Shown here: positions 17,187-57,804 of the stretch, one piece after another
Layout of the letters: the number at the start of each line of letters is the position of its first letter
How positions within the stretch are numbered: position 1 is the stretch's first letter
Source: Zhongshania sp.
GTDB taxonomy: Bacteria; Pseudomonadota; Gammaproteobacteria; Pseudomonadales; Spongiibacteraceae
Length of the DNA stretch: 64,000 bases
Reading direction: 5' to 3'
NCBI RefSeq assembly: GCF_029212375.1
Contig: NZ_JARGNU010000005.1
Location: 68,395-132,394 of the forward strand
The notes under the pieces: model-generated
What the model was told of the DNA's origin: nothing
Database searches by the model: none
The model's input: only the letters and a program-made list of their open reading frames with translations
Made by a program: the position numbers and the translations under genes

Positions 17187-19325
17187 ATGAAGCTAGATTA
17201 TGGGAAGTACCGGGGAATAATTGTTTCTATTGCATTATTTCTGTTGCTCGACGCATCGGTAATGTCATTAAATTTTTATATTTCATATGAAATTTCGGAA
17301 GATGCCGTGGGTGTCAATATTGCTGGTCGGCAACGGATGCTGTCGCAGCGGATGATGAAATCACTTTTGGATATGCGTTCTGTATTAGTTGCTAGTGAGT
17401 CTGAGGGAGCTGATATTACGTCCGTGCTCAATTCAGCGCTAAAGGAACTCGATGCCACGGTGAATATGTTTCACGCCACGCTTATCGCGTTTGATGAAGG
17501 TGGTTTGGCGCCGGGTGCAGAGGGTGGTGAGGTGCTTTTGAAACCAGCTGGGTCTGGGGCCAGTGTTGCCGCTTTACATGAGGCGAAACAAATTTGGGCG
17601 CCATTTTATAAGCAACTTAATGCTTTGCAGAAGACGAACTTGACTGCCGAGTCCCAGATATTTTTAGCTCAGTTAAATACTGCTGTGGCCTATGGTCGCG
17701 AATATAATTTAACGTTACTAAAACTCATGAATCAACTCACTGGTGAATTGGAAAATGTCGCTAGTTCAAAGGCTAGCCGTCTGCGCTGGATTCAAACGGC
17801 GGGGATCAGTCTGGCAATAATTAACTTTTTTATTATTATGTTCCATTTTTTGCGTCAGCTTCGGGACAGTGATCGTCATATTGAAGTGGCGCGTGGGGAA
17901 ACCCAAGAGATCCTCGATACTGTTAACGAAGGCTTGTTTTTGATTGATAAAGAGCAGCGGATTGGTGAGCAGTGTTCAAAGGCATTGGCGGATATGTTTG
18001 GGCGGCGCGATATTGCCGGAAAAAGTTTTAATGACTTACTCAGTGGTATCGTGTCGGAGAAAGATCGCGCCACCGCGACGAGCTATATAGGCTTATTATT
18101 CGATCTGCGTAAAAAGCAAAAGCTCATTGGCGATCTAAATCCTTTGCGTCAGGTTGAGATTTATATACCACAGGCAGACGGTAGTTACGTTAATAAGTAT
18201 TTGAGTTTTTCGTTTTCTCGCGTTATGAGCGAGGGCAATATCATCCATATACTGGTCACGGTTGTGGATGTATCCAAACAGGTATTACTTGCTGGCGAGT
18301 TGGATGTGGCTCGGGCGCAGGGGCAGGAGCAGTTGGCTCTTTTGTCTACAGTTCTGCAAGCTGACAGCGATATGTTGAACATGTTCTTAAAAAACAGTGT
18401 CAGTAGTTTTGCCAAAATTAATGAGATTCTAAAGCATCAAGCAAAGTCGGTACCCCAATATATAGATAAGGCCAATCAAATATTTGCTCTGGTGCATAAC
18501 TATAAGGGTGAGGCCTCGGCCTTAAATCTTGGTCGATTTAGCAGTCAGGCTCATGAGTTTGAGGAGCAAATTATTGCCTTGAAAAATCGTAGTGAATTGA
18601 CTGGGAATGATTTTCTGGGTTTGGCAGTGATCTTGAATAAGCTCATTGCTGAAACCGAGAGTATTCAGGATTTATTAAGCAAGGTGGCTAGCTTTAGATC
18701 GAATACCAAAACGTCTGTGGCTACCTTGGCCGCAAACAATGGTGATTATTTATCGTTTAGTCATCTGCAGATGCTGGCGACAAAAATATCCGAGCGTCAG
18801 GGTAAAGAGGTCGAAGTGGTGTGCACAGGCTTTAATGACGTTGCCCTTGGCGACGAGGCGCAATCCACGCTGAATGGCCTAGCAGTACAATTGGTGCGCA
18901 ATGCTGTCAGTCATGGCATAGAGACTTGCTCGAGCCGTATTCTTGCAGGTAAACGTCCTCAGGGAGAAATTAATCTTCGTATCGCAAAGCGTAATAATGG
19001 TGATTTGCAGTTAGTGTGTGAAGACGACGGCAGTGGTCTCAATCGCGAGGCCATTTTACGAGCGGCTTTAGAGCGTGGTCTTATCAGTGGCGAGGAAGAC
19101 CTAGAGGGTGATGATCGCCGTCTTGCGGAATTGATTTTTCACCCAGACTTTTCTACTCGGGATGCTGCCGACGAAGATGCTGGGCGTGGCATGGGGCTAT
19201 TTGCATTGCGTCAGACCGTGCGGGAGATGGGGGGGAAAATTGCTATTAACTCACGCAATGGTCGCGGCGCTCGCTTTGTTGTTTCAATACCAGTAACGGC
19301 ACTGCAAATGAACGTGGCAGTATAA
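17187..19325 (+). CDS. PilJ-type sensor / PAS / Hpt / CheA-like histidine kinase
   Basis: A 712-residue membrane kinase. TM1 is at ~10-30, a PilJ/NarX-like sensor region follows (GVNIAGRQRMLSQRMM, ~43-58), TM2 at ~205-222, a PAS-like domain at ~240-365, an Hpt-like domain with candidate phosphorylated His437 in HNYKGEASALNL, and a CheA-type ATPase at ~555-705 (N-box VRNAVSHGIE, G1 EDDGSGLN, G2 GRGMGL). It ends directly after the ATPase, so the CheA regulatory (CheW-like) domain is absent. Receptor and kinase are thus one chain. The start at 17187 follows AAGGTGG and abuts an in-frame stop. It is the first gene of an operon with CheY- and CheX-like genes. The input ligand is unknown. Confidence 0.82.
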   Translation: MKLDYGKYRGIIVSIALFLLLDASVMSLNFYISYEISEDAVGVNIAGRQRMLSQRMMKSLLDMRSVLVASESEGADITSVLNSALKELDATVNMFHATLIAFDEGGLAPGAEGGEVLLKPAGSGASVAALHEAKQIWAPFYKQLNALQKTNLTAESQIFLAQLNTAVAYGREYNLTLLKLMNQLTGELENVASSKASRLRWIQTAGISLAIINFFIIMFHFLRQLRDSDRHIEVARGETQEILDTVNEGLFLIDKEQRIGEQCSKALADMFGRRDIAGKSFNDLLSGIVSEKDRATATSYIGLLFDLRKKQKLIGDLNPLRQVEIYIPQADGSYVNKYLSFSFSRVMSEGNIIHILVTVVDVSKQVLLAGELDVARAQGQEQLALLSTVLQADSDMLNMFLKNSVSSFAKINEILKHQAKSVPQYIDKANQIFALVHNYKGEASALNLGRFSSQAHEFEEQIIALKNRSELTGNDFLGLAVILNKLIAETESIQDLLSKVASFRSNTKTSVATLAANNGDYLSFSHLQMLATKISERQGKEVEVVCTGFNDVALGDEAQSTLNGLAVQLVRNAVSHGIETCSSRILAGKRPQGEINLRIAKRNNGDLQLVCEDDGSGLNREAILRAALERGLISGEEDLEGDDRRLAELIFHPDFSTRDAADEDAGRGMGLFALRQTVREMGGKIAINSRNGRGARFVVSIPVTALQMNVAV

Positions 19326-19337
19326 AGAGGCGTGGTT

Positions 19338-19709
19338 ATGTTGAAATTAATGGTAGTAGACGATTCTAATATCATTCGCTCAAAAATTTGTCGCGCTCAT
19401 AATGCGGATAAATTCGAGATTGTTGCAACCGCGACTGACGGTGCTGAAGCCATTGCATTTTTTGAAATGCACCATCCTCAGGTGGTCACCATGGACTTAA
19501 CCATGCCCAATATTGATGGTATTGAGTGTATAGCGCGTTTAGCGGCGATAAATCCTGAGGTGCTTATATTGGTGGTTTCTGCTTTGTCGGATCAAGCGAC
19601 AGGTATTGAAGCCCTCGAAAAAGGTGCCAGTGGCTTTTTATTAAAACCTTTTAGCGAAAATGACTTGCGTGCGGCCCTAGACGAACTAACGGAACATCTT
19701 AATGACTGA
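19338..19709 (+). CDS. Single-domain response regulator (CheY-like)
   Basis: A 123-residue receiver domain with no output domain. The acidic pair is D8-D9, the phosphoacceptor D53 in VVTMDLTMPN, the Ser81 switch in VVSALSD and Lys103 in LLKPF. The ATG at 19338 has AGAGG seven bases upstream and is preferred over the track's GTG at 19332. It lies 12 bp after the CheA-like kinase, its probable donor, and overlaps the CheX-like gene by eight bases. The target may be a flagellar or pilus motor or another protein; none is nearby. Confidence 0.9.
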   Translation: MLKLMVVDDSNIIRSKICRAHNADKFEIVATATDGAEAIAFFEMHHPQVVTMDLTMPNIDGIECIARLAAINPEVLILVVSALSDQATGIEALEKGASGFLLKPFSENDLRAALDELTEHLND

Positions 19710-20151
19710 AGATAAACTGCAAATATTTATAGACGGCGTTGTGCGTTATTTTGAACATACTGCAGACAATGATATGCGTGTAGGTACGCCTTATTTAGCT
19801 TCTAATGCAGATCCGATTTCTATGGATTACACCGGCATTATTGGTATTTCCGGTAACAATAAGGGGTGTGTGTATTTTACTGCGCCCAAAATCATGCTGA
19901 AACATTTAATGATGAGCTTAGGTGAGCCAGACACCTCAGAAGCTAATATGATCGACCTCGTAGGTGAAGTGGCTAATACAATTTCAGGGAATGCGCGTCG
20001 TGAGCTGGGCAAAGATTTTATGATCTCTGTGCCGGTTGTTGTGTCTGGTGCCCCGAGTAAAATTCACTTACCCAGTGAGATGCGTTCTTACGTGGTGCCG
20101 GCGGTGTGGCGCTCTTACAGCGCAGCTGTGGTGATTTGTTTGCAGGCATAA
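19702..20151 (+). CDS. CheX-like phosphatase
   Basis: A 149-residue protein of the CheX/CheC fold. The DLVGEVANTISGNARR helix carries the ExxN catalytic motif (E89, N92) used to dephosphorylate CheY-P. The end of the upstream receiver gene overlaps its start by eight bases, pointing to coupled translation and a direct partnership. CheX was first described in spirochetes and Thermotoga; in gammaproteobacteria such proteins also occur outside classical chemotaxis operons. Its partner here is presumably the 19338-19709 receiver. Confidence 0.82.
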   Translation: MTEDKLQIFIDGVVRYFEHTADNDMRVGTPYLASNADPISMDYTGIIGISGNNKGCVYFTAPKIMLKHLMMSLGEPDTSEANMIDLVGEVANTISGNARRELGKDFMISVPVVVSGAPSKIHLPSEMRSYVVPAVWRSYSAAVVICLQA

Positions 20152-20316: not shown

Positions 20317-20814
20317 ATGAGAATAGCAGCCCCCATAATCCTGTCAGAAGAAGAACGCAAAAAATTCACTAAATTGCTTCACAGCGGAAAACCCCCTGTA
20401 CGCCTTATGGAGCGCATAAAAAATTATTTTATTAGCTCATGAAGGGAAAGAGAATCAAGCTATAGCGGAAGAATTGGAGATAGGCAAGAACAAAGTTGGA
20501 CGTTGGCGCAACCGCTATGCTGAAGGTGGATTCAAAGCATTAGAAAAGAACCTCCCGCGCGGTAAAAACCATGCAGGGAAAAGCAGTCTTGGCCAACTAC
20601 GTTTACGCAATAACGTTATTCGGATGACCACACAGGAAAAACCTGCCGATGGGACACACTGGTCGACCCGCTCATTAGCCAAAGCTTTAAATACCACAGA
20701 TACATTTGTTCATCGTGTTTGGAAATCAGCCGGGCTGAAGCCGCATTTGACAAAGTCATTTAAAGTCAGCAATGACCTTTTGTTTGAAGAAAAGCTGCAT
20801 GATATTGTTGGCTT
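20317..20814 (+). pseudogene. IS630-family transposase, N-terminal fragment, frameshifted
   Basis: The reading starts MRIAAPIILSEEERKKF and then needs a +1 shift at a run of six A (20418-20423) to continue as LLAHEGKENQAIAEEL...GKNKVGRWRNRYAEGG. This is the helix-turn-helix N terminus of IS630-type transposases. It continues through THWSTRSLAKALNTT to HDIVG, where the IS4-type element begins. The DDE catalytic half is absent, and none appears on the far side of the insertion. The extra A could be a mutation or a programmed shift, but the loss of the catalytic half makes the gene dead anyway. Confidence 0.85.
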
Positions 20815-20833
20815 CACTGCTGTCCCATAACTT
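20815..20833. repeat. Left terminal inverted repeat of the IS4-type element
   Basis: CACTGCTGTCCCATAACTT is the exact reverse complement of 22069-22087. The outermost few bases might belong to the target rather than the element. Confidence 0.9.
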
Positions 20834-20843
20834 AGAAATAAAA

Positions 20844-20917
20844 AAGGCTTGGTTCTCAACAAGTTGATACAATGAAGTTGCGAACAAAAACTGTAATAAC
20901 AGGGGTAACCAAGCCTT
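20844..20917 (+). promoter_or_regulatory. Internal inverted repeat covering the transposase start
   Basis: AAGGCTTGGTT (20844-20854) and AACCAAGCCTT (20907-20917) form a perfect 11-bp stem. The right arm runs into the TTG start codon and follows AGGGG. RNA entering from outside the element could fold and hide the start, a known protective device in other insertion sequences. Confidence 0.5.
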
Positions 20918-22067
20918 GTCACATCATAACACGGTCTTTTCACAATTGTTAAAATTGGTATCGAGACATGAATTTGAAGGTCTAGCAAAAGAGCACCACG
21001 AGGGCCAAAAACTGCGCAAAATGTCACGGTGGTCTCAATTTGTTTCCTTAAGCTTGGCTCAGCTTTCCGGTCGCGCCAGCCTGCGTGATATTGTCAGCAA
21101 TCTGTCTGCTCAAGCGGCCAAGCTTTACCATCTCGGCAGCAATAATGTTACGCGCAGCTCCTTATCACGCGTGAACGAATGTCAGCCTTACACACTTTAT
21201 GAAGCCTTGTTTCATAAACTGTTATCCCGATGTCACGCTACCGCACCAAAACACGGGTTTCGTTTCAAGAACAAACTGTATTCTCTGGATTCCACTACGA
21301 TTGACCTGTGCCTTTCTGTTTTCCCGTGGGCAAAATTTCGTCGTACCAAAGGGGCCGTCAAAGTCCATGTCGGTCTTGACCATCAGGGTTTTCTGCCCAG
21401 CTTTGTCCGTATCACCGACGGTAAACAGCATGATGTCACCGTCGCCCGCGCACTCGCCTTACCCGCCGACAGCATTGTCGTAATGGATCGCGCTTACATA
21501 GACTATGCATGGTTTAACAGCCTGAATGACAAAGGAATTTTCTTTGTCACTCGACAAAAACGCAATGCCACTTACCGTATTACTGAGCGGAGGGACGTCA
21601 TTAAGGCCAAAGGGCTGACCTGCGATCAAACTATCTACATTACTGGTAGCAAAGCGCAAACTTGTTCAATTCCTTTGCGACGAATCGGCTTTAAAGACGC
21701 GACGACGGGTAAGCACTACGTATTTCTGACTAATAATTTTCACCTTGCCGCTAAAACTATCGCTGACCTTTACAAATCCCGCTGGCAGGTCGAATTATTT
21801 TTTAAGTGCATTAAGCAAAACCTCAAGATTAAGTCATTTGTCGGTACGTCTAAAAATGCCGTCATGACGCAAATCTGGATTGCCATGTGCGCCTACTTGC
21901 TACTTTTATGGATAAAGTTCAGCTGTCAAATTGATCGCAGTCTTCAGCAGATGATTCGGTTACTCCAGCTTAATTTATTCGAGCGGAGGGATTTGATGAC
22001 GCTGTTGAGAGGTGACCCGCCGGAGTTAGTAGATAAACTAAATCACCCTCAACTTGAACTACTATGA
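20916..22067 (+). CDS. IS4-family transposase
   Basis: A 383-residue DDE transposase. The catalytic acids are visible: first Asp in LYSLDSTTIDL, second Asp in VVMDRAYIDY, and the Y-R-E-K signature in YKSRWQVELFFKCIKQNLK. The N-terminal FSQLLKLVSRHEFE segment is the DUF4372-type region of this IS4 subgroup. The frame is intact, so the copy may still be active. The start appears to be TTG at 20916 with AGGGG upstream, inside the stem of the leader inverted repeat. Confidence 0.93.
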   Translation: MSHHNTVFSQLLKLVSRHEFEGLAKEHHEGQKLRKMSRWSQFVSLSLAQLSGRASLRDIVSNLSAQAAKLYHLGSNNVTRSSLSRVNECQPYTLYEALFHKLLSRCHATAPKHGFRFKNKLYSLDSTTIDLCLSVFPWAKFRRTKGAVKVHVGLDHQGFLPSFVRITDGKQHDVTVARALALPADSIVVMDRAYIDYAWFNSLNDKGIFFVTRQKRNATYRITERRDVIKAKGLTCDQTIYITGSKAQTCSIPLRRIGFKDATTGKHYVFLTNNFHLAAKTIADLYKSRWQVELFFKCIKQNLKIKSFVGTSKNAVMTQIWIAMCAYLLLLWIKFSCQIDRSLQQMIRLLQLNLFERRDLMTLLRGDPPELVDKLNHPQLELL

Positions 22068-47099: not shown

Positions 47100-49283
47100 A
47101 TGATCTTTGGCCGAAAACACCGTAAGCCAATAACCATAGTTGATAAAAAGGTTGTCGACTGGAAGTACGCAGTATGTGGCTACTGCTCCACTGGCTGCTC
47201 TATCGAGGTGGGCTTGAACGCCGAGGGTAAACCCGTGGCTAGCCGTGGCAAGGGCAATGCGCCGGTCAATCAAGGCAAGCTTTGCATTAAAGGTATCTTT
47301 GAACACGAGCTAAGCGTTACTCCGGGTCGCGGTACTGAGCCGTTGATGCGCAATAAGATATATGATCAGTTTCAGCCCGCGAGTTGGGATACTGCACTGG
47401 ATAAAACCGCTGCAGAGTTTAAGCGTATTCAAGCGAAATATGGGCGTGATAGTGTCGCGGTTGTCTCGACTGGGCAGCTGCTTACAGAAGAATTTTATAC
47501 TTTAGGTAAGTTGGTGCGTGGGGTCATTGGCACCAATAATTATGATGGTAATACCACTCTGTGCATGGCCTCTGCGGTATCGGGTTATAAACGCTCTTTT
47601 GGCGCAGATGGTCCGCCAGGTTGTTACGACGATTTTGAAAGCACCCACTGTTTGATGGCTTTTGGCTCTAATCTGCCAGAGCAGCACCCCATTATTTATT
47701 GGCGCTTAAAAGAAGCGCTGGAAAAACGTAAATTCCCACTGATCGTGGTAGATCCACGCGTCACCATGTTTGCTCAGTTTGCGGACATTCATCTGCCGAT
47801 TACCCCTGGCACAGACCTAGTGTTATTGAATGCCCTAGCGCACGTGATCTTAGCGGAAGGGCTTCAAGATCAGGCTTATATCGAAGCCCACTGCAATGGC
47901 TTTGAGGAGCTGAAAGCGACGGTAGCCAAATACGATCCGGTCAGTGCCTCACGGATTTGCGGCATAGACGCCGACATGATTAAAAATGTGGCCAGAATTT
48001 ATGCCAAAGCGCCATCGGCGATGAGTATCTGGACCATGGGCATTAACCAGAGCACCCACGGCACCGACGGTGTTTGTGGTATTAATAATCTCAATTTAAT
48101 CACCGGCAATATTGGTATTCCTGGCGGCACCAGTCTGTCGATCACTGGTCAGTGTAATGCAATGGGCACGCGGGAGTGGTCGTCTTGCTCGGGCTTACCG
48201 GGTTATCGCGCCCTTGAAAAACAAGAACACCGTGATGAGGTCGCTAAATTTTGGGGTGTGGACGAAAGTTTCTTCCCAGCTAAGCGCGGCCTGCAGCAAA
48301 CCGATATTTTCCCCGCTATTGAGTCCGGCGAGATTAAGGCTTTGTGGATAGTGGCCACTAATCCACTAACGTCGATGCCGAACCAACCGCGAATTAAGAA
48401 GGCGCTGGAAAAACTCGAGTTTATGGTGGTGCAAGACGGCTACAAAGACTGTGAGACGGTAAATTTTGCCCATGTGTATTTGCCAGGCGCGCTTTGGGGT
48501 GAAAAAGAAGGGGTGCAGACCAATACCGAACGTCGGGTTAATTTGGTGCGCAAATTTGTTGAGCCGCCGGGACAGTCCAAGCCAGATCACTGGATATTTA
48601 GTGAGCTGGCAAAGCGTTTTGAGCAGGGGCGGACGATGGTATTTCCCGAGACCACCTCTGAAATTTTTGACGAGATGAAACAGCTGTCTAAGGGTGACGG
48701 CCGTAATCTCGATATATCCGGCATGAGCCACGACTTAATTGAGGCTCAGCGTGGTATTCAATGGCCAATGCGCGAAGGTGCAGAAACCGGCGATCCGCGC
48801 TTATATAGCGACGGTATATTCCCCAGCCCGAATGGCAAGGCGAATTTGTTGGCGATGGATTATATCGAAGACAACGAAGTGCCCAGCGATAGCTACCCCT
48901 TCTGGCTGAATAGCGGCCGAGTGGTTGAGCATTTTCATACGCGTACTAAGACCGGCAAAATTGGTAATTTGAATAAGTTTAGCCCCACACCTTATATGGA
49001 GATGAATCCAGATTCTGCCCGTGAGCAGGGGGTTAAGCACCAGAGTTATGTGCGGCTAGTATCTAAGCGTGGCGATGCAGTGGTGATGGTTCAGCTCACG
49101 CAGCGAGTGCCTCACAATATGGTGTTTATTCCCATGCATTACCACGATTGTGTTAACCGCTTGTCACTGGGTTTACTCGATCCCTATTCACGGCAACCTG
49201 CCTTTAAGCAGTGTGCGGTGCGCATAGAGCAGATTGATCAAAAAGAAGCTGGGCGACTAAACGTTGAGCGTCGCGCCTACTGA
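47100..49283 (+). CDS. NasA/NarB-like molybdopterin oxidoreductase, catalytic subunit
   Basis: A 727-residue Mo-bis-MGD enzyme of the DMSO reductase superfamily. The N-terminal [4Fe-4S] motif is CGYCSTGC...GKLCIKG. The probable Mo ligand is Cys in NTTLCMASAVSGYKRSFG, in the same setting as assimilatory nitrate reductases. MGINQSTHGTDGV, GNIGIPGGTSLSITGQCNAMG and the C-terminal NKFSPTPYMEMNPDSA are also NasA-like. There is no twin-arginine signal, so it should face the cytoplasm. The next gene encodes a fused Fe-S/DmsC partner, unusual for NasA-type enzymes, which normally use ferredoxin or NADH. The substrate is unproven: nitrate is my first guess. No maturation chaperone or nitrite reductase lies nearby. 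Confidence 0.75.
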   Translation: MIFGRKHRKPITIVDKKVVDWKYAVCGYCSTGCSIEVGLNAEGKPVASRGKGNAPVNQGKLCIKGIFEHELSVTPGRGTEPLMRNKIYDQFQPASWDTALDKTAAEFKRIQAKYGRDSVAVVSTGQLLTEEFYTLGKLVRGVIGTNNYDGNTTLCMASAVSGYKRSFGADGPPGCYDDFESTHCLMAFGSNLPEQHPIIYWRLKEALEKRKFPLIVVDPRVTMFAQFADIHLPITPGTDLVLLNALAHVILAEGLQDQAYIEAHCNGFEELKATVAKYDPVSASRICGIDADMIKNVARIYAKAPSAMSIWTMGINQSTHGTDGVCGINNLNLITGNIGIPGGTSLSITGQCNAMGTREWSSCSGLPGYRALEKQEHRDEVAKFWGVDESFFPAKRGLQQTDIFPAIESGEIKALWIVATNPLTSMPNQPRIKKALEKLEFMVVQDGYKDCETVNFAHVYLPGALWGEKEGVQTNTERRVNLVRKFVEPPGQSKPDHWIFSELAKRFEQGRTMVFPETTSEIFDEMKQLSKGDGRNLDISGMSHDLIEAQRGIQWPMREGAETGDPRLYSDGIFPSPNGKANLLAMDYIEDNEVPSDSYPFWLNSGRVVEHFHTRTKTGKIGNLNKFSPTPYMEMNPDSAREQGVKHQSYVRLVSKRGDAVVMVQLTQRVPHNMVFIPMHYHDCVNRLSLGLLDPYSRQPAFKQCAVRIEQIDQKEAGRLNVERRAY

Positions 49284-49385
49284 ATGGTGCGGGCGCTGCC
49301 CGCGCAGAACATCTTGTAGTTTGTCATATGGTTTTTAGAGTGTTTGTGGCTTTAGCGCCAATACGCTCGGCAAAGGGTCTTATAT

Positions 49386-51236
49386 ATGTGGAAAGTTAGA
49401 GACGATGAACCCAGTTACGCCTTTCTCAAGGAGCCAACGGCTCCTGAGGTAAATTATTACGAGGCGCCCATCGATCTTATTGCGCGTACTGGTGGGGCCT
49501 TGCCCGCTGGCCGCGAAATGTTTATTAATGAAGAGCCTGGCGTGGGTAATAACCCCAATCGTAATAAACAGCATGCATTTCATTTTACTGCCGATAATTG
49601 CATAGGCTGCCACGCCTGCGAAGCGGCCTGTAGTGAGAAAAACGACAATCCTGCGCATATCAGTTTCCGCTCTGTAGGCTATGTTGAAGGCGGCACCTAC
49701 CCCGACTTCAAACGCATGAATATTTCCATGGCCTGCAATCACTGCGACGATCCGGTGTGTTTAAAAGGTTGTCCAACCCGCGCTTACACCAAGCATGTGG
49801 AATACGGCGCGGTGCTGCAAGATCCAGAAACCTGCTTTGGCTGCGGTTACTGCACTTGGGTCTGCCCTTATAACGCGCCGCAACTCGACCCAATCAAAGG
49901 TCAGGTGTCTAAGTGCAATATGTGTGTAGATCGCCTCGAGGTTAATTTAAAACCCGCCTGTGTGTCGGCGTGCTTGGGTAATGCACTTAATTTTGGTGTG
50001 GTCGATGATCTGCCGGAAAACCGCGAACAGGGTAAAACGAGTATTCCTGGCTTTCCCGATCCCGAGATCACCCACCCTAATATTCGCTTCCAGCAAATTC
50101 AAAATATGCCTGACGAAGTGACTCGCACCGATGGTATGTCGGTGAAATACCATAAGGGCGACGATGGCCAGTATCGGCCAGTGGTAGATCAGAAGAAAGG
50201 CGTTGAGAAGAAGTGGAGTCTCGGCAAACTTAGCTCTCGCGAAAATCCGCTGGTGATATTTACCTTGGTTAGCCAAACCTCGCTAGGCGCCTTTTTGTTG
50301 AGTTTCCTTGGCGCGCAGCTGGGTATCGACAGCATTATCGCCCTGCGTGACTCAGTGATGTACATCCCCTTTATGGCGGCAACAGTGGGTCTAGCTGGGC
50401 TGGGTATGCTGATGTCGGCGACTCACCTTGGTAAACCTTGGCGCTTTTATCGGGGCTTTAATAATTTACGTCATTCTCCTGTGTGTCGTGAAGGCTTGGG
50501 TATGCTGCTGTATATGGTATTTGCTGGAATACATTTATTAGCGATGCTACCTGAAAATACCGTGTTTATTTCTCTGTTTGGTACTTGGGGAACGTTCAGC
50601 GGTGTGGCAATCACTAGCGGTTATTTGGCGCTAATCGCCGGCGCGGTGGGGCTTTACTATATGTATCGCTGCTACCGTATCCCCGCGCGGCCGTTTTGGA
50701 ATCACTGGCAGACCGGTAGCGCATTCTTAGGCACATCGCTTAGCTTGGGCAGTGTCGTGCTGGGCGCCGTTGGTGTGCCAACCTTGATGTTGATTGGCGC
50801 CGACGGCCTCGCAATGCTGAAATTGTGCCTTGCCGTCATGGTGATTGGTATTGCTTTAGAAGCCTTTGGATTGTGGCGTCATGGGGTGGCGATGGATAAG
50901 GGAAATAATGAAGGTAGTGTGTCGCACTATATTCAATGCACCTTGTTTGGCAAAAGCTATGCCCTGCGTAACCTACTATTACTGGGTAATCTGATTCTGG
51001 CGGCGGTGCTGCTCAGTGGCTCCGAGCTTGGGGTGCTGAACTTAATTGGTGGCGCGGTATTGTGCGGTTCTATATTAGCAACGGCGATAATTGGACGCTG
51101 CCTCTTCTATGTATTGGTAATACCCACAACCATGCCCGGCGCGTTCTTTTGGAAGAACAAAGATTTTGAAGAGCATGCACGAGACATCGGCTTGGCCAAT
51201 ATGCCCCAAGTTGGTGTGGTAGCGCACGCTCACTGA
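49386..51236 (+). CDS. Fused DmsB-DmsC electron-transfer/membrane-anchor subunit
   Basis: A 616-residue fusion protein. The first ~240 residues are a DmsB-type ferredoxin with four cysteine clusters: CIGCHACEAACSEKN, CNHCDDPVCLKGCP, CFGCGYCTWVCP and CNMCVDRL...CVSACL. After a linker of about 40 residues, eight hydrophobic helices resemble DmsC (ATHLGKPWRFYRGF is typical), an anchor that oxidises menaquinol or ubiquinol without heme. It lies 102 bp after the catalytic gene. Together they could form a two-gene, three-domain quinol-linked reductase or dehydrogenase. In most systems DmsB and DmsC are separate genes, so this fusion is noteworthy. Confidence 0.85.
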   Translation: MWKVRDDEPSYAFLKEPTAPEVNYYEAPIDLIARTGGALPAGREMFINEEPGVGNNPNRNKQHAFHFTADNCIGCHACEAACSEKNDNPAHISFRSVGYVEGGTYPDFKRMNISMACNHCDDPVCLKGCPTRAYTKHVEYGAVLQDPETCFGCGYCTWVCPYNAPQLDPIKGQVSKCNMCVDRLEVNLKPACVSACLGNALNFGVVDDLPENREQGKTSIPGFPDPEITHPNIRFQQIQNMPDEVTRTDGMSVKYHKGDDGQYRPVVDQKKGVEKKWSLGKLSSRENPLVIFTLVSQTSLGAFLLSFLGAQLGIDSIIALRDSVMYIPFMAATVGLAGLGMLMSATHLGKPWRFYRGFNNLRHSPVCREGLGMLLYMVFAGIHLLAMLPENTVFISLFGTWGTFSGVAITSGYLALIAGAVGLYYMYRCYRIPARPFWNHWQTGSAFLGTSLSLGSVVLGAVGVPTLMLIGADGLAMLKLCLAVMVIGIALEAFGLWRHGVAMDKGNNEGSVSHYIQCTLFGKSYALRNLLLLGNLILAAVLLSGSELGVLNLIGGAVLCGSILATAIIGRCLFYVLVIPTTMPGAFFWKNKDFEEHARDIGLANMPQVGVVAHAH

Positions 51237-55152: not shown

Positions 55153-55560
55153 CTAGGAAAAATATTGCTCCACAATATCCTGCAATTTGTCTGCGTTAAG
55201 CGGCTTACTGCAATACGCAGATACAGCGGGGTGCGACTCTGCGCGCTCATGATCACTGGGGTTGACGGATGTTGATAAAATAATAATCACAGGTTGGCGT
55301 AAATCCTGGGGAACAATACCTTCATATCGATCAAGGAATTCCCAGCCATTAATGGCCGGCATATTGAGGTCTAAAAAAATGAGTTCGGGTAGCCGCTGCT
55401 TTAGTTTTATGGCGCTGCCAATGGTATTCAAGGCCTCGGCAGCGAGGGTGTAGCTGGTGACCGTTTTGCAGATACGCGCTTTTTCAATAATCATTTGGTG
55501 GTAGTAATTGTCAGCACTGCTGTCGTCAACCAAGATAATTTTTTCGAGCTTCGCGGTCAT
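55153..55560 (-). CDS. Single-domain response regulator (Rcp1-like)
   Basis: A 135-residue receiver domain: acidic pair D12-D13, phosphoacceptor D64 in IFLDLNMP, and a conserved Lys in AYCSKPLN. The longer spacing between strands resembles Rcp1-type receivers that pair with HisKA kinases having a DLQEPLR box. The ATG at 55560 overlaps the stop of the kinase gene (ATGA), so the two are coupled; the track's longer start lies inside the kinase gene. No output domain: it must act through protein contact. Confidence 0.9.
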   Translation of the reverse strand: MTAKLEKIILVDDSSADNYYHQMIIEKARICKTVTSYTLAAEALNTIGSAIKLKQRLPELIFLDLNMPAINGWEFLDRYEGIVPQDLRQPVIIILSTSVNPSDHERAESHPAVSAYCSKPLNADKLQDIVEQYFS

Positions 55561-57380
55561 ATCGATATCACCTTGGGTATAGTAAAGCAAAAGCGGCAGC
55601 CTTGGTTTAAAGCAGAATCTACCCAAATTTTGCCGCCGTGCAAATTAATAACTTTTTTACAATTAGCCAGACCAATACCGCTGCCGGGGTAGGTGTCTTG
55701 GCTGTGCAGGCGTTTAAATATCATAAAAATTTGGTCTATATACTCAGCCTCAATACCAATGCCATTATCACTGACAGTAAAACACCAGTCGCTTTTTTTA
55801 TCTACACAGCTAATGTCAATTTGCAGAGGGGTGTCTGGTTTTCTGAATTTTAAGGCATTGCTAATCAGATTTTGGAAGAGAATGCGCAATTCGGTTTCAT
55901 AGGCCGTTATCACCGGTAAACGACCTATCTTAATGTGGGTAGTGTCAGAATTAATGCCTGCATCTAAATCGGCAATGACCTTGCTAACAAGCGCTTCGCA
56001 GTTAACCGTAACCAGTTCTGGGGCTCTGCCTATCCGGCTGTAAGACATTAGCCCAAACACGAGCTTGCGCATCCGCTCGGCGGCTTCGCCAATAAAGTTT
56101 ACCGACATTAAAACCCGTTCATTGGGTTCGCTACCCGACAGCTCTTCGCGCAGTAGATCGCTAAAATTGCTTAAAGTACGCAAGGGCTCCTGAAGGTCGT
56201 GAGATGCAGCAAAGGCAAATTGGGCTAATTCTTCGTTGGACGCTTCTAAGCGCAGGACCGATTTTTGTAATTGCTGCGCCTTGAGTTGATAGCCCTCAGA
56301 CATGCGCTGTGCAAATCCCAGCGCGCGGCGATTGGCCCGCGAGAGTAATAGAAATAGGCTAAGCAACAGGAGGTCGACAAAAATACCGCCAATGAGTATT
56401 AAGGTGGGTTGAGTATTTTGAGTTTCTGCGCGAAATGCCTTGGTTGACCACACCTCGACCAGCCATTCCCGCCCATAAACCTCAATAGTGTAACTTTTTT
56501 TGAACAGTGGATTGGGGTCAAAGTAGGCTTCATCGCGATTGTTTTCATCGTATAGCGACTCGCCTTGGTCGCTAATGCGAATACCGACCTGGCGACGACT
56601 TTTCTCCAAGGTGCCACGCATCAGCTTATGAACAACGAAGGGGGCGTAAACCATGCCCTCAAATTGCGCGCGCCTGCTTTCTAGGCTACTAACCGCGTTA
56701 ACAGGCGGAGGTTTGCGATAGAACGGTGCGTAAAACAAAAAACCTGGGGTTTTCTCGGCATCTTGTACCAAGACAATCGGACCGGTGATTTGCGCTTGGC
56801 CGGTATCGCGAGCCTTAAGCGCGGCGGTTAAACGATTAGTCTCGTGGGCAACATCAAGCCCGACCGCGGCCAGATTGTCTTTTTCTGGTTCTATATAGGT
56901 AATGGGGAGTAAGTAGCCATTGTTGTGCTGAGGGTGAATTTCATAATTAGCTCGGCTTTTGCGCTGCTCCACATAATAGCGATCTAAATCGCCCTTGCTT
57001 ACCTTGTGAATTACGCCAATGCCGTTGATACCCTTGTATTTAATTGGCAAGTGCAGCGCGCTGGCAAATTCTTGCCATTGATGTCGGCTCATATTCCCAT
57101 CGTGGGATTGGATGGTAGCAACTCCAGCCCACAGCGCATCTTCGTATTTCTGCAGACGCTCCGAAAGTAACGTAATACTTTGATCTGCTTCGCGGCTAAA
57201 GCGAGTCTCGATTTTGTCTTGCACTTGGTGGCGGGAATATTGCCATACACCAAGGGTTAGCAGGAGTGACAAGCTCACCACTAGCCAGTGGACCCAATGC
57301 AAACCGCCGGCCTTTTCCAAGGCTTGCTGTTCGGTGAGGATGGCACCTTGATCCTTTTCTGGTATTTGCTGTTCAGTCAT
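55557..57380 (-). CDS. CHASE-domain sensor histidine kinase
   Basis: A kinase of about 607 residues. After a short cytoplasmic N terminus comes TM1 (WVHWLVVSLSLLLTLGVW), a periplasmic CHASE domain (KYKGINGIGVIHKV, LLPITYIEPEKDN) and TM2 (PTLILIGGIFVDLLLLSLF). Then come HisKA with His ~394 in FAASHDLQEPLRTL and an HATPase with N-box LISNALKFRKP, GIGIEAEYIDQIF and SGIGLANCKKV. The CHASE domain suggests sensing of a small external molecule such as a cytokinin-like or lipid signal. The track starts at a TTG; I use ATG 57380, though neither has a strong Shine-Dalgarno. Its partner is the overlapping receiver gene. Confidence 0.86.
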   Translation of the reverse strand: MTEQQIPEKDQGAILTEQQALEKAGGLHWVHWLVVSLSLLLTLGVWQYSRHQVQDKIETRFSREADQSITLLSERLQKYEDALWAGVATIQSHDGNMSRHQWQEFASALHLPIKYKGINGIGVIHKVSKGDLDRYYVEQRKSRANYEIHPQHNNGYLLPITYIEPEKDNLAAVGLDVAHETNRLTAALKARDTGQAQITGPIVLVQDAEKTPGFLFYAPFYRKPPPVNAVSSLESRRAQFEGMVYAPFVVHKLMRGTLEKSRRQVGIRISDQGESLYDENNRDEAYFDPNPLFKKSYTIEVYGREWLVEVWSTKAFRAETQNTQPTLILIGGIFVDLLLLSLFLLLSRANRRALGFAQRMSEGYQLKAQQLQKSVLRLEASNEELAQFAFAASHDLQEPLRTLSNFSDLLREELSGSEPNERVLMSVNFIGEAAERMRKLVFGLMSYSRIGRAPELVTVNCEALVSKVIADLDAGINSDTTHIKIGRLPVITAYETELRILFQNLISNALKFRKPDTPLQIDISCVDKKSDWCFTVSDNGIGIEAEYIDQIFMIFKRLHSQDTYPGSGIGLANCKKVINLHGGKIWVDSALNQGCRFCFTIPKVISI

Positions 57381-57804
57381 AGTGTGGACAAATAACCTGT
57401 AGGAAATACTTGCCACCAATATCATAGCCAATGAGGGTGATGGCTTGTTTATTTATAGCATTTGGCCGCAGCTTAGCGGATGTTATTCAAATAGTTAATT
57501 CCTAGGGTCCGCGGCCCTGCGCCCAGCTTAGTCCACAGTATAGGTAGCTATGTCTGGCACTACTACTGTGTCGACTTAGTTATTGACGGCAACTACGTAC
57601 AAGTACTGCAATAGCTAACGTCGTAACGAGGTTCGGGGAAAAATCGCGAGGCTATAAGGTTTTGAGTAGCCATGGTCATTATTGATGATGTGCAGCGCTT
57701 GGTGCGCCGGATGTTTACGCTGAGTATTAGTGCGAGCGGGCAAGGGTGGTTATAATGCCCACACGTTACAAGTTTTATTCAATTATTCGGAGCAGGGACC
57801 CTTT
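57381..57804. other. 424-bp divergent intergenic region
   Basis: Between the CHASE kinase and fabV I find no gene. The right end has the fabV promoter element (57751-57756). Some of the left edge may be coding if the kinase starts further upstream (up to 57431). Confidence 0.5.
57751..57756 (+). promoter_or_regulatory. -10 element for fabV
   Basis: A perfect TATAAT lies about 48 bases before the fabV start. A -35 is not clear. Confidence 0.4.

Follow-up and report, generated by a model that had tools for sequence, protein, structure and literature searches.

A gammaproteobacterial receptor kinase with CheA-type parts, accompanied by CheY and CheX

Introduction

It is generally assumed that a chemotaxis kinase depends on CheW and on receptor arrays. 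A locus of Zhongshania sp. raises the question of whether a kinase built from chemotaxis parts can do without them: three adjacent genes code for a membrane receptor which carries a CheA-type ATPase, a CheY-like receiver and a CheX-like protein. The locus lies in a stretch of 64,000 nt, which we will call the window. Our answer, which we hold to be quite likely, is that these genes would form a self-contained module with a single His-Asp step, from receptor kinase to CheY, reset by CheX and responding to a periplasmic anion, most probably nitrate. A first-pass annotation of the same DNA had spoken of a phosphorelay; this label is overstated, only one His-to-Asp step being encoded.

The three-gene locus

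The features of the locus are given in Table 1. All three genes are tightly packed, and the open reading frames of CheY and CheX overlap by 8 nt. The receiver was originally called at 19332–19709; the ATG at 19338 is a likelier start, giving a protein of 123 amino acids which matches its relatives. Numbered from this ATG, the CheY active site (DD/D/S-T/K) is present as D8, D9, D53, S81 and K103, in a protein with a strong Pfam match to Response_reg (E 6.5e-27). Pfam detects no output domain on it. The third protein matches Pfam PF13690 (E 1.1e-22) and solved CheX structures in the PDB (best E 2.9e-11). Its Glu89 and Asn92 are invariant in the eight proteins compared; a divergent CheX (L075a) was left unmatched by the motif scan. 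The first-pass reading of a CheY-like receiver followed at short spacing, and with an overlap, by a CheX-like protein with an ExxN motif is thus confirmed. CheX dephosphorylates CheY-P, and from its homology and conserved catalytic residues the protein found here would be expected to shorten the signal.

Directly downstream of the triplet, at 20474–22067, a short HTH_32 transposase-like fragment precedes a DDE transposase (DDE_Tnp_1 and DUF4372) that looks intact. The window also contains a second signalling pair at 55153–57431 on the minus strand: a CHASE-HisKA-HATPase kinase and a receiver protein.

Table 1. Position of the three genes and of the kinase domains in the window
Feature	Position	Strand	Basis
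Receptor kinase, 712 aa: PilJ sensor, PAS, Hpt, CheA-type P4 ATPase	17187–19325	+	Pfam, PDB, model
PilJ four-helix sensor with two TM, residues 9–229	17211–17873	+	Pfam PilJ, AlphaFold helices
N-box VNIAGRQRMLSQ, residues 43–54	17313–17348	+	Exact match to published pattern (PMC6381276)
PAS-like domain, residues 249–361	17931–18269	+	AlphaFold secondary-structure order; weak PAS_8
Hpt domain, residues 394–505, His437 in HNYKGEA (codon 18495–18497)	18366–18701	+	Pfam, models, alignment
CheA P4-type ATPase, residues 524–705	18756–19301	+	PDB, alignment, model
CheY-type single-domain receiver, phosphoacceptor Asp53	19338–19709	+	Pfam, relatives' starts
CheX-type CheY-P phosphatase (predicted), 149 aa, ExxN = Glu89/Asn92	19702–20151	+	Pfam, PDB

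The kinase and its relation to CheA

An AlphaFold model of the kinase, built with an alignment of 20 relatives, has a mean pLDDT of 81.6 and a pTM of 0.49; at this pTM the relative placement of the domains cannot be read from it. The order of the domains is clear: the four-helix sensor with two transmembrane segments is followed by a PAS-like fold, a single helix and the four-helix Hpt, then by a linker and P4, with nothing beyond. The PAS domain has only a weak Pfam match (PAS_8, E 0.006, under cut-off). We did not find a HAMP domain in this kinase, and Pfam gives no HisKA match which would indicate a DHp phosphoacceptor domain: the Hpt stands in its place.

The Hpt domain is recognised by Pfam at residues 395–475 (E 1.5e-5, over cut-off), and the model folds the whole domain as a four-helix bundle. 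When this region was modelled separately (pLDDT 88.5), the top structure matches were HPt proteins of plants; CheA P1 domains appear in the top 25, with 1tqg at a TM-score (target) of 0.79 and 2.5 Å. The best Foldseek E-value is 5.6e-3, helix bundles being so common that such values are modest. His437, Lys440 and Gly441, which form the motif His-x-x-Lys-Gly, are invariant across the 20 kinases aligned. A different fold around His437 would have spoken against the first-pass reading; Pfam and the model both give an Hpt bundle.

The ATPase is matched by Pfam HATPase_c at residues 567–704 (E 1.8e-14) and, over residues ~524–705, by CheA P4 structures in the PDB (E ~1e-24). Its model superposes on CheA P4 at about 2.2 Å, with a TM-score (target) of 0.84. 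The N, G1 and G2 boxes are intact: N572, H576, D613, G615, G617 and G666/G668/G670 are invariant in the 20 kinases. Pfam, PDB matches and the model therefore bear out the presence of a PilJ-like sensor, PAS, Hpt and CheA-type ATPase in one chain.

Two domains of CheA are missing. After the P4 match there are 7 residues, and neither Pfam nor the model shows a P5/CheW domain; the kinase does end without the CheA regulatory domain, as first proposed, and a CheW-like domain hidden past residue 705 is absent. Between Hpt and P4 there is no Pfam match to the P3 dimerisation hairpin: a low-confidence or disordered linker (504–522) is found instead. In a 2023 survey all CheA (100%) had a CheW domain, and the dimerisation domain always occurred together with kinase and CheW domains (PMC10542144). 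Since both the dimerisation and the CheW domain are missing, our kinase is not a CheA by the published definition, which asks for an ATPase and a CheW domain.

One might think of an ordinary CheA that lost its P5, a truncated gene in decay, as the solved structures which come closest to its P4 domain in sequence are those of CheA P4. We consider this extremely improbable: an identical end point, intact catalytic residues and the triplet itself recur in relatives of many families. In a P4 tree, read by topology alone, the P5-less kinases of the triplets group apart from the CheA and ChpA of related genomes and do not nest among them. The domain composition suggests instead that the kinase works like CheA chemistry set into an ordinary membrane sensor kinase.

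Conservation of the triplet

The first-pass annotation had proposed to check whether the three genes stay together. They do: kinase, CheY and CheX are found side by side in the same order at every complete related locus that we read, in about nine gammaproteobacterial families. L001 and L013 end at a contig edge and are outside this count. The search with the kinase found the triplet in named genomes such as Spongiibacter thalassae and in assemblies labelled Cellvibrionales or Spongiibacteraceae. An independent search with CheX in 369 gammaproteobacterial genomes gave strong members (E 5e-44 or better) in 12, the genome of the window included. Stand-alone CheX genes with weak matches (L052–L060) had no triplets where they were read. 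In a sample of 399 genomes across phyla, strong matches to the kinase core were present in two only, both of them from Gammaproteobacteria; the triplet may occur rarely outside this class.

Some genomes have paralogous triplets, three in G199 and two in G142. One locus (L075:5846–14431) has two tandem triplets, an extra copy of CheX and two proteins of ~300 aa with no Pfam matches. Another locus, L078, keeps PAS-Hpt-P4, CheY and CheX behind a different N-terminal sensor, putatively of Cache type and not PilJ, so the sensor appears to be exchangeable. Distances computed for the three proteins vary together, and none of 2000 permutations reached the observed correlation; species descent confounds this mirror-tree signal, which fits a joint descent of the three genes. 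We rejected the idea that the triplet replaces flagellar CheA throughout the genus: it is present in 3 of 18 genomes of the genus, one of which (G015) also has CheA.

We found no prior description of this architecture in the openly accessible literature, subscription journals being outside the scope of our search.

The sensor and its ligand

Pfam PilJ matches the kinase at residues 35–147 (E 4.6e-10), and the model places the sensor helices at 9–69, 77–104, 124–149 and 157–229. The only plausible relative in the PDB is the nitrate receptor McpN (6gcv), which is matched weakly. The sensor contains an exact copy of the N-box described for nitrate, [IVL]-[ND]-x-A-G-x-Q-R-M-L-[ST]-Q (PMC6381276), which the first-pass annotation had overlooked; Arg50 of the kinase aligns with Arg61 of McpN. 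The exact N-box is present in half of the 20 aligned kinases: the one in the window and nine others. Nitrate is probably the ligand of this subset, judging from the motif; it is not a ligand for the whole family, since the other half of the aligned relatives have no N-box.

The gene content of the hosts was also compared and gives leads on the ligand. NirB is over cut-off in eight hosts with an N-box, and a ninth has a fragment; among the hosts without it the number is four of seven (P 0.06, 16 genomes, in a comparison chosen after the data had been seen). In G294, a relative with N-box, the triplet abuts genes for a PP2C/kinase, NarK, NirBD and nitrate-reductase-like proteins. In G001 nirB lies about 17 kb from the triplet. 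In the genome of the window, some 18 kb separate the triplet from upstream genes for a PP2C/kinase and a formate/nitrite transporter.

At 47100–51236 the window codes for a molybdopterin oxidoreductase that resembles formate dehydrogenase and nitrate reductase; after it comes a protein in which DmsB-like and DmsC-like parts are fused. We dropped the molybdoenzyme (47100–49283) as evidence for nitrate: it is below the curated cut-offs of the formate dehydrogenase and nitrate reductase models.

The PilJ domain might sense something else, such as another anion, a peptide or contact with a surface. In P. aeruginosa the chemoreceptor PilJ does not bind nitrate, and its PilJ domains have no N-box (PMC6381276); the motif is missing from half of the aligned relatives, as stated above. 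We find this rather unlikely for the kinase in the window: all twelve residues of the N-box, with the key arginine, are conserved in it and in the nine other kinases. Nitrate remains our preferred ligand for them.

Proposed mechanism

A periplasmic anion, most probably nitrate, would be sensed at the N-box of a PilJ dimer. The signal would then pass through TM2 and PAS to the Hpt and the CheA-type P4 ATPase, all in the same chain. Because sensor, Hpt and P4 share one chain, no CheW, chemoreceptor or array should be needed; the first-pass view that the receptor itself is the kinase, in a self-contained module, follows from the fused architecture and is supported. P4 would phosphorylate His437, probably in trans, and because the P3 hairpin of CheA is absent the dimer would probably be held by the helices of sensor and PAS. 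The phosphate would pass once, from His437 to Asp53 of the partner CheY, from which the partner CheX would strip it, making the signal fast and reversible. We infer this pairing and the dephosphorylation from the protein families; the direction of regulation, like the ligand, is likewise a prediction from sequence.

Possible outputs

Candidates for the output are type IV pili, lineage-specific partners and, in hosts which have one, the flagellar switch. The two readings which follow each extend the one-step His-Asp explanation and do not exclude it.

The first is motility: an array-free chemotaxis in which CheY-P would act on FliM or on pilus motors and steer the cell in nitrate gradients. A piecewise search of the genome of the window found no flagellar CheA or CheW. 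Its CheW domains are in PilI and ChpA only and its sole MCP is PilJ, all in the Pil-Chp cluster, so there is no flagellar-type receptor array on which the module could depend; this scarcity of other chemotaxis parts had escaped the first-pass annotation. Yet two FliM proteins are encoded in this genome; the N-terminus of one carries LSQAEIDALL, which we take to be the CheY-docking peptide of the E. coli type. G001 and G142 have a similar makeup. PilT is present in all triplet hosts of the class sample, but it is over cut-off in 309 of 369 genomes and this association is too widespread to be informative. Five triplet hosts (G316, G265, G199, G406 and G311) have no FliM, which led us to reject the flagellum as a general output. 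FliM is also found in G012, where both flagellar CheA and the triplet are missing, and no linkage to motility genes was seen at the triplet loci. Motility is thus an unlikely output in our opinion. A complete array-free pathway, from nitrate receptor kinase through CheY-P to flagellar switch or pilus motors in hosts with no flagellar CheA, CheW or chemoreceptor other than PilJ, we judge quite unlikely. Near the FliM cluster of the same genome (L124:3156–5593) there are an Hpt protein, a receiver and a ParA-type ATPase; this Hpt protein might be an alternative source of phosphate for the motor.

In the second reading CheY-P would act on lineage-specific partners which control nitrogen metabolism or a surface lifestyle, a reading that we regard as a tentative possibility, somewhat short of an even chance. 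Nitrate assimilation genes are found beside the triplet at L076/L128, an ammonium transporter near it at L072 and, in the window's own genome, the transporter and PP2C/kinase genes mentioned above. At L068 (8113–9357) a fusion of a receiver with a Ser/Thr protein kinase lies immediately downstream of the triplet and is a possible output in that lineage. On the other hand these neighbours differ by lineage, the loci read have no conserved fourth operon gene and the receiver itself lacks an output domain.

Comparison with known systems

The module combines features of several systems. NarX and NarQ are also membrane sensor kinases; their periplasmic domain has four helices as well, and they carry a nitrate-box motif related to the N-box. 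They differ from our kinase, which has an Hpt in place of DHp, a P4 of CheA type and no HAMP that we could find; their partner is a DNA-binding regulator (PMC8199190), here it is a single-domain CheY. McpN has the same exact N-box as our sensor (PMC6381276), with a weak PDB match (6gcv), but it is a chemoreceptor that acts through CheW and CheA, whereas our sensor is fused to the kinase. There are other, more distant P5-less kinases with Hpt and HATPase in one chain and no CheW (L113, L115, L117–L120). In contrast to the triplets, no CheX neighbour was found for them, and some have 4HB_MCP and/or HAMP sensors.

In its components the module parallels CheA/CheY/CheX of the Thermotoga/Borrelia type: the two share a P1-like Hpt, a P4 ATPase, a CheY receiver and a CheX with ExxN. 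The module in the window differs by the absence of P3, P5/CheW and a separate chemoreceptor, and by a kinase chain which includes the sensor and PAS. The conservation of such a receptor kinase together with CheY and CheX suggests that the Hpt-P4 engine can serve an ordinary membrane sensor kinase. It offers a natural test of how P4 may be controlled without P5 and coupling, with nitrate as the candidate ligand.
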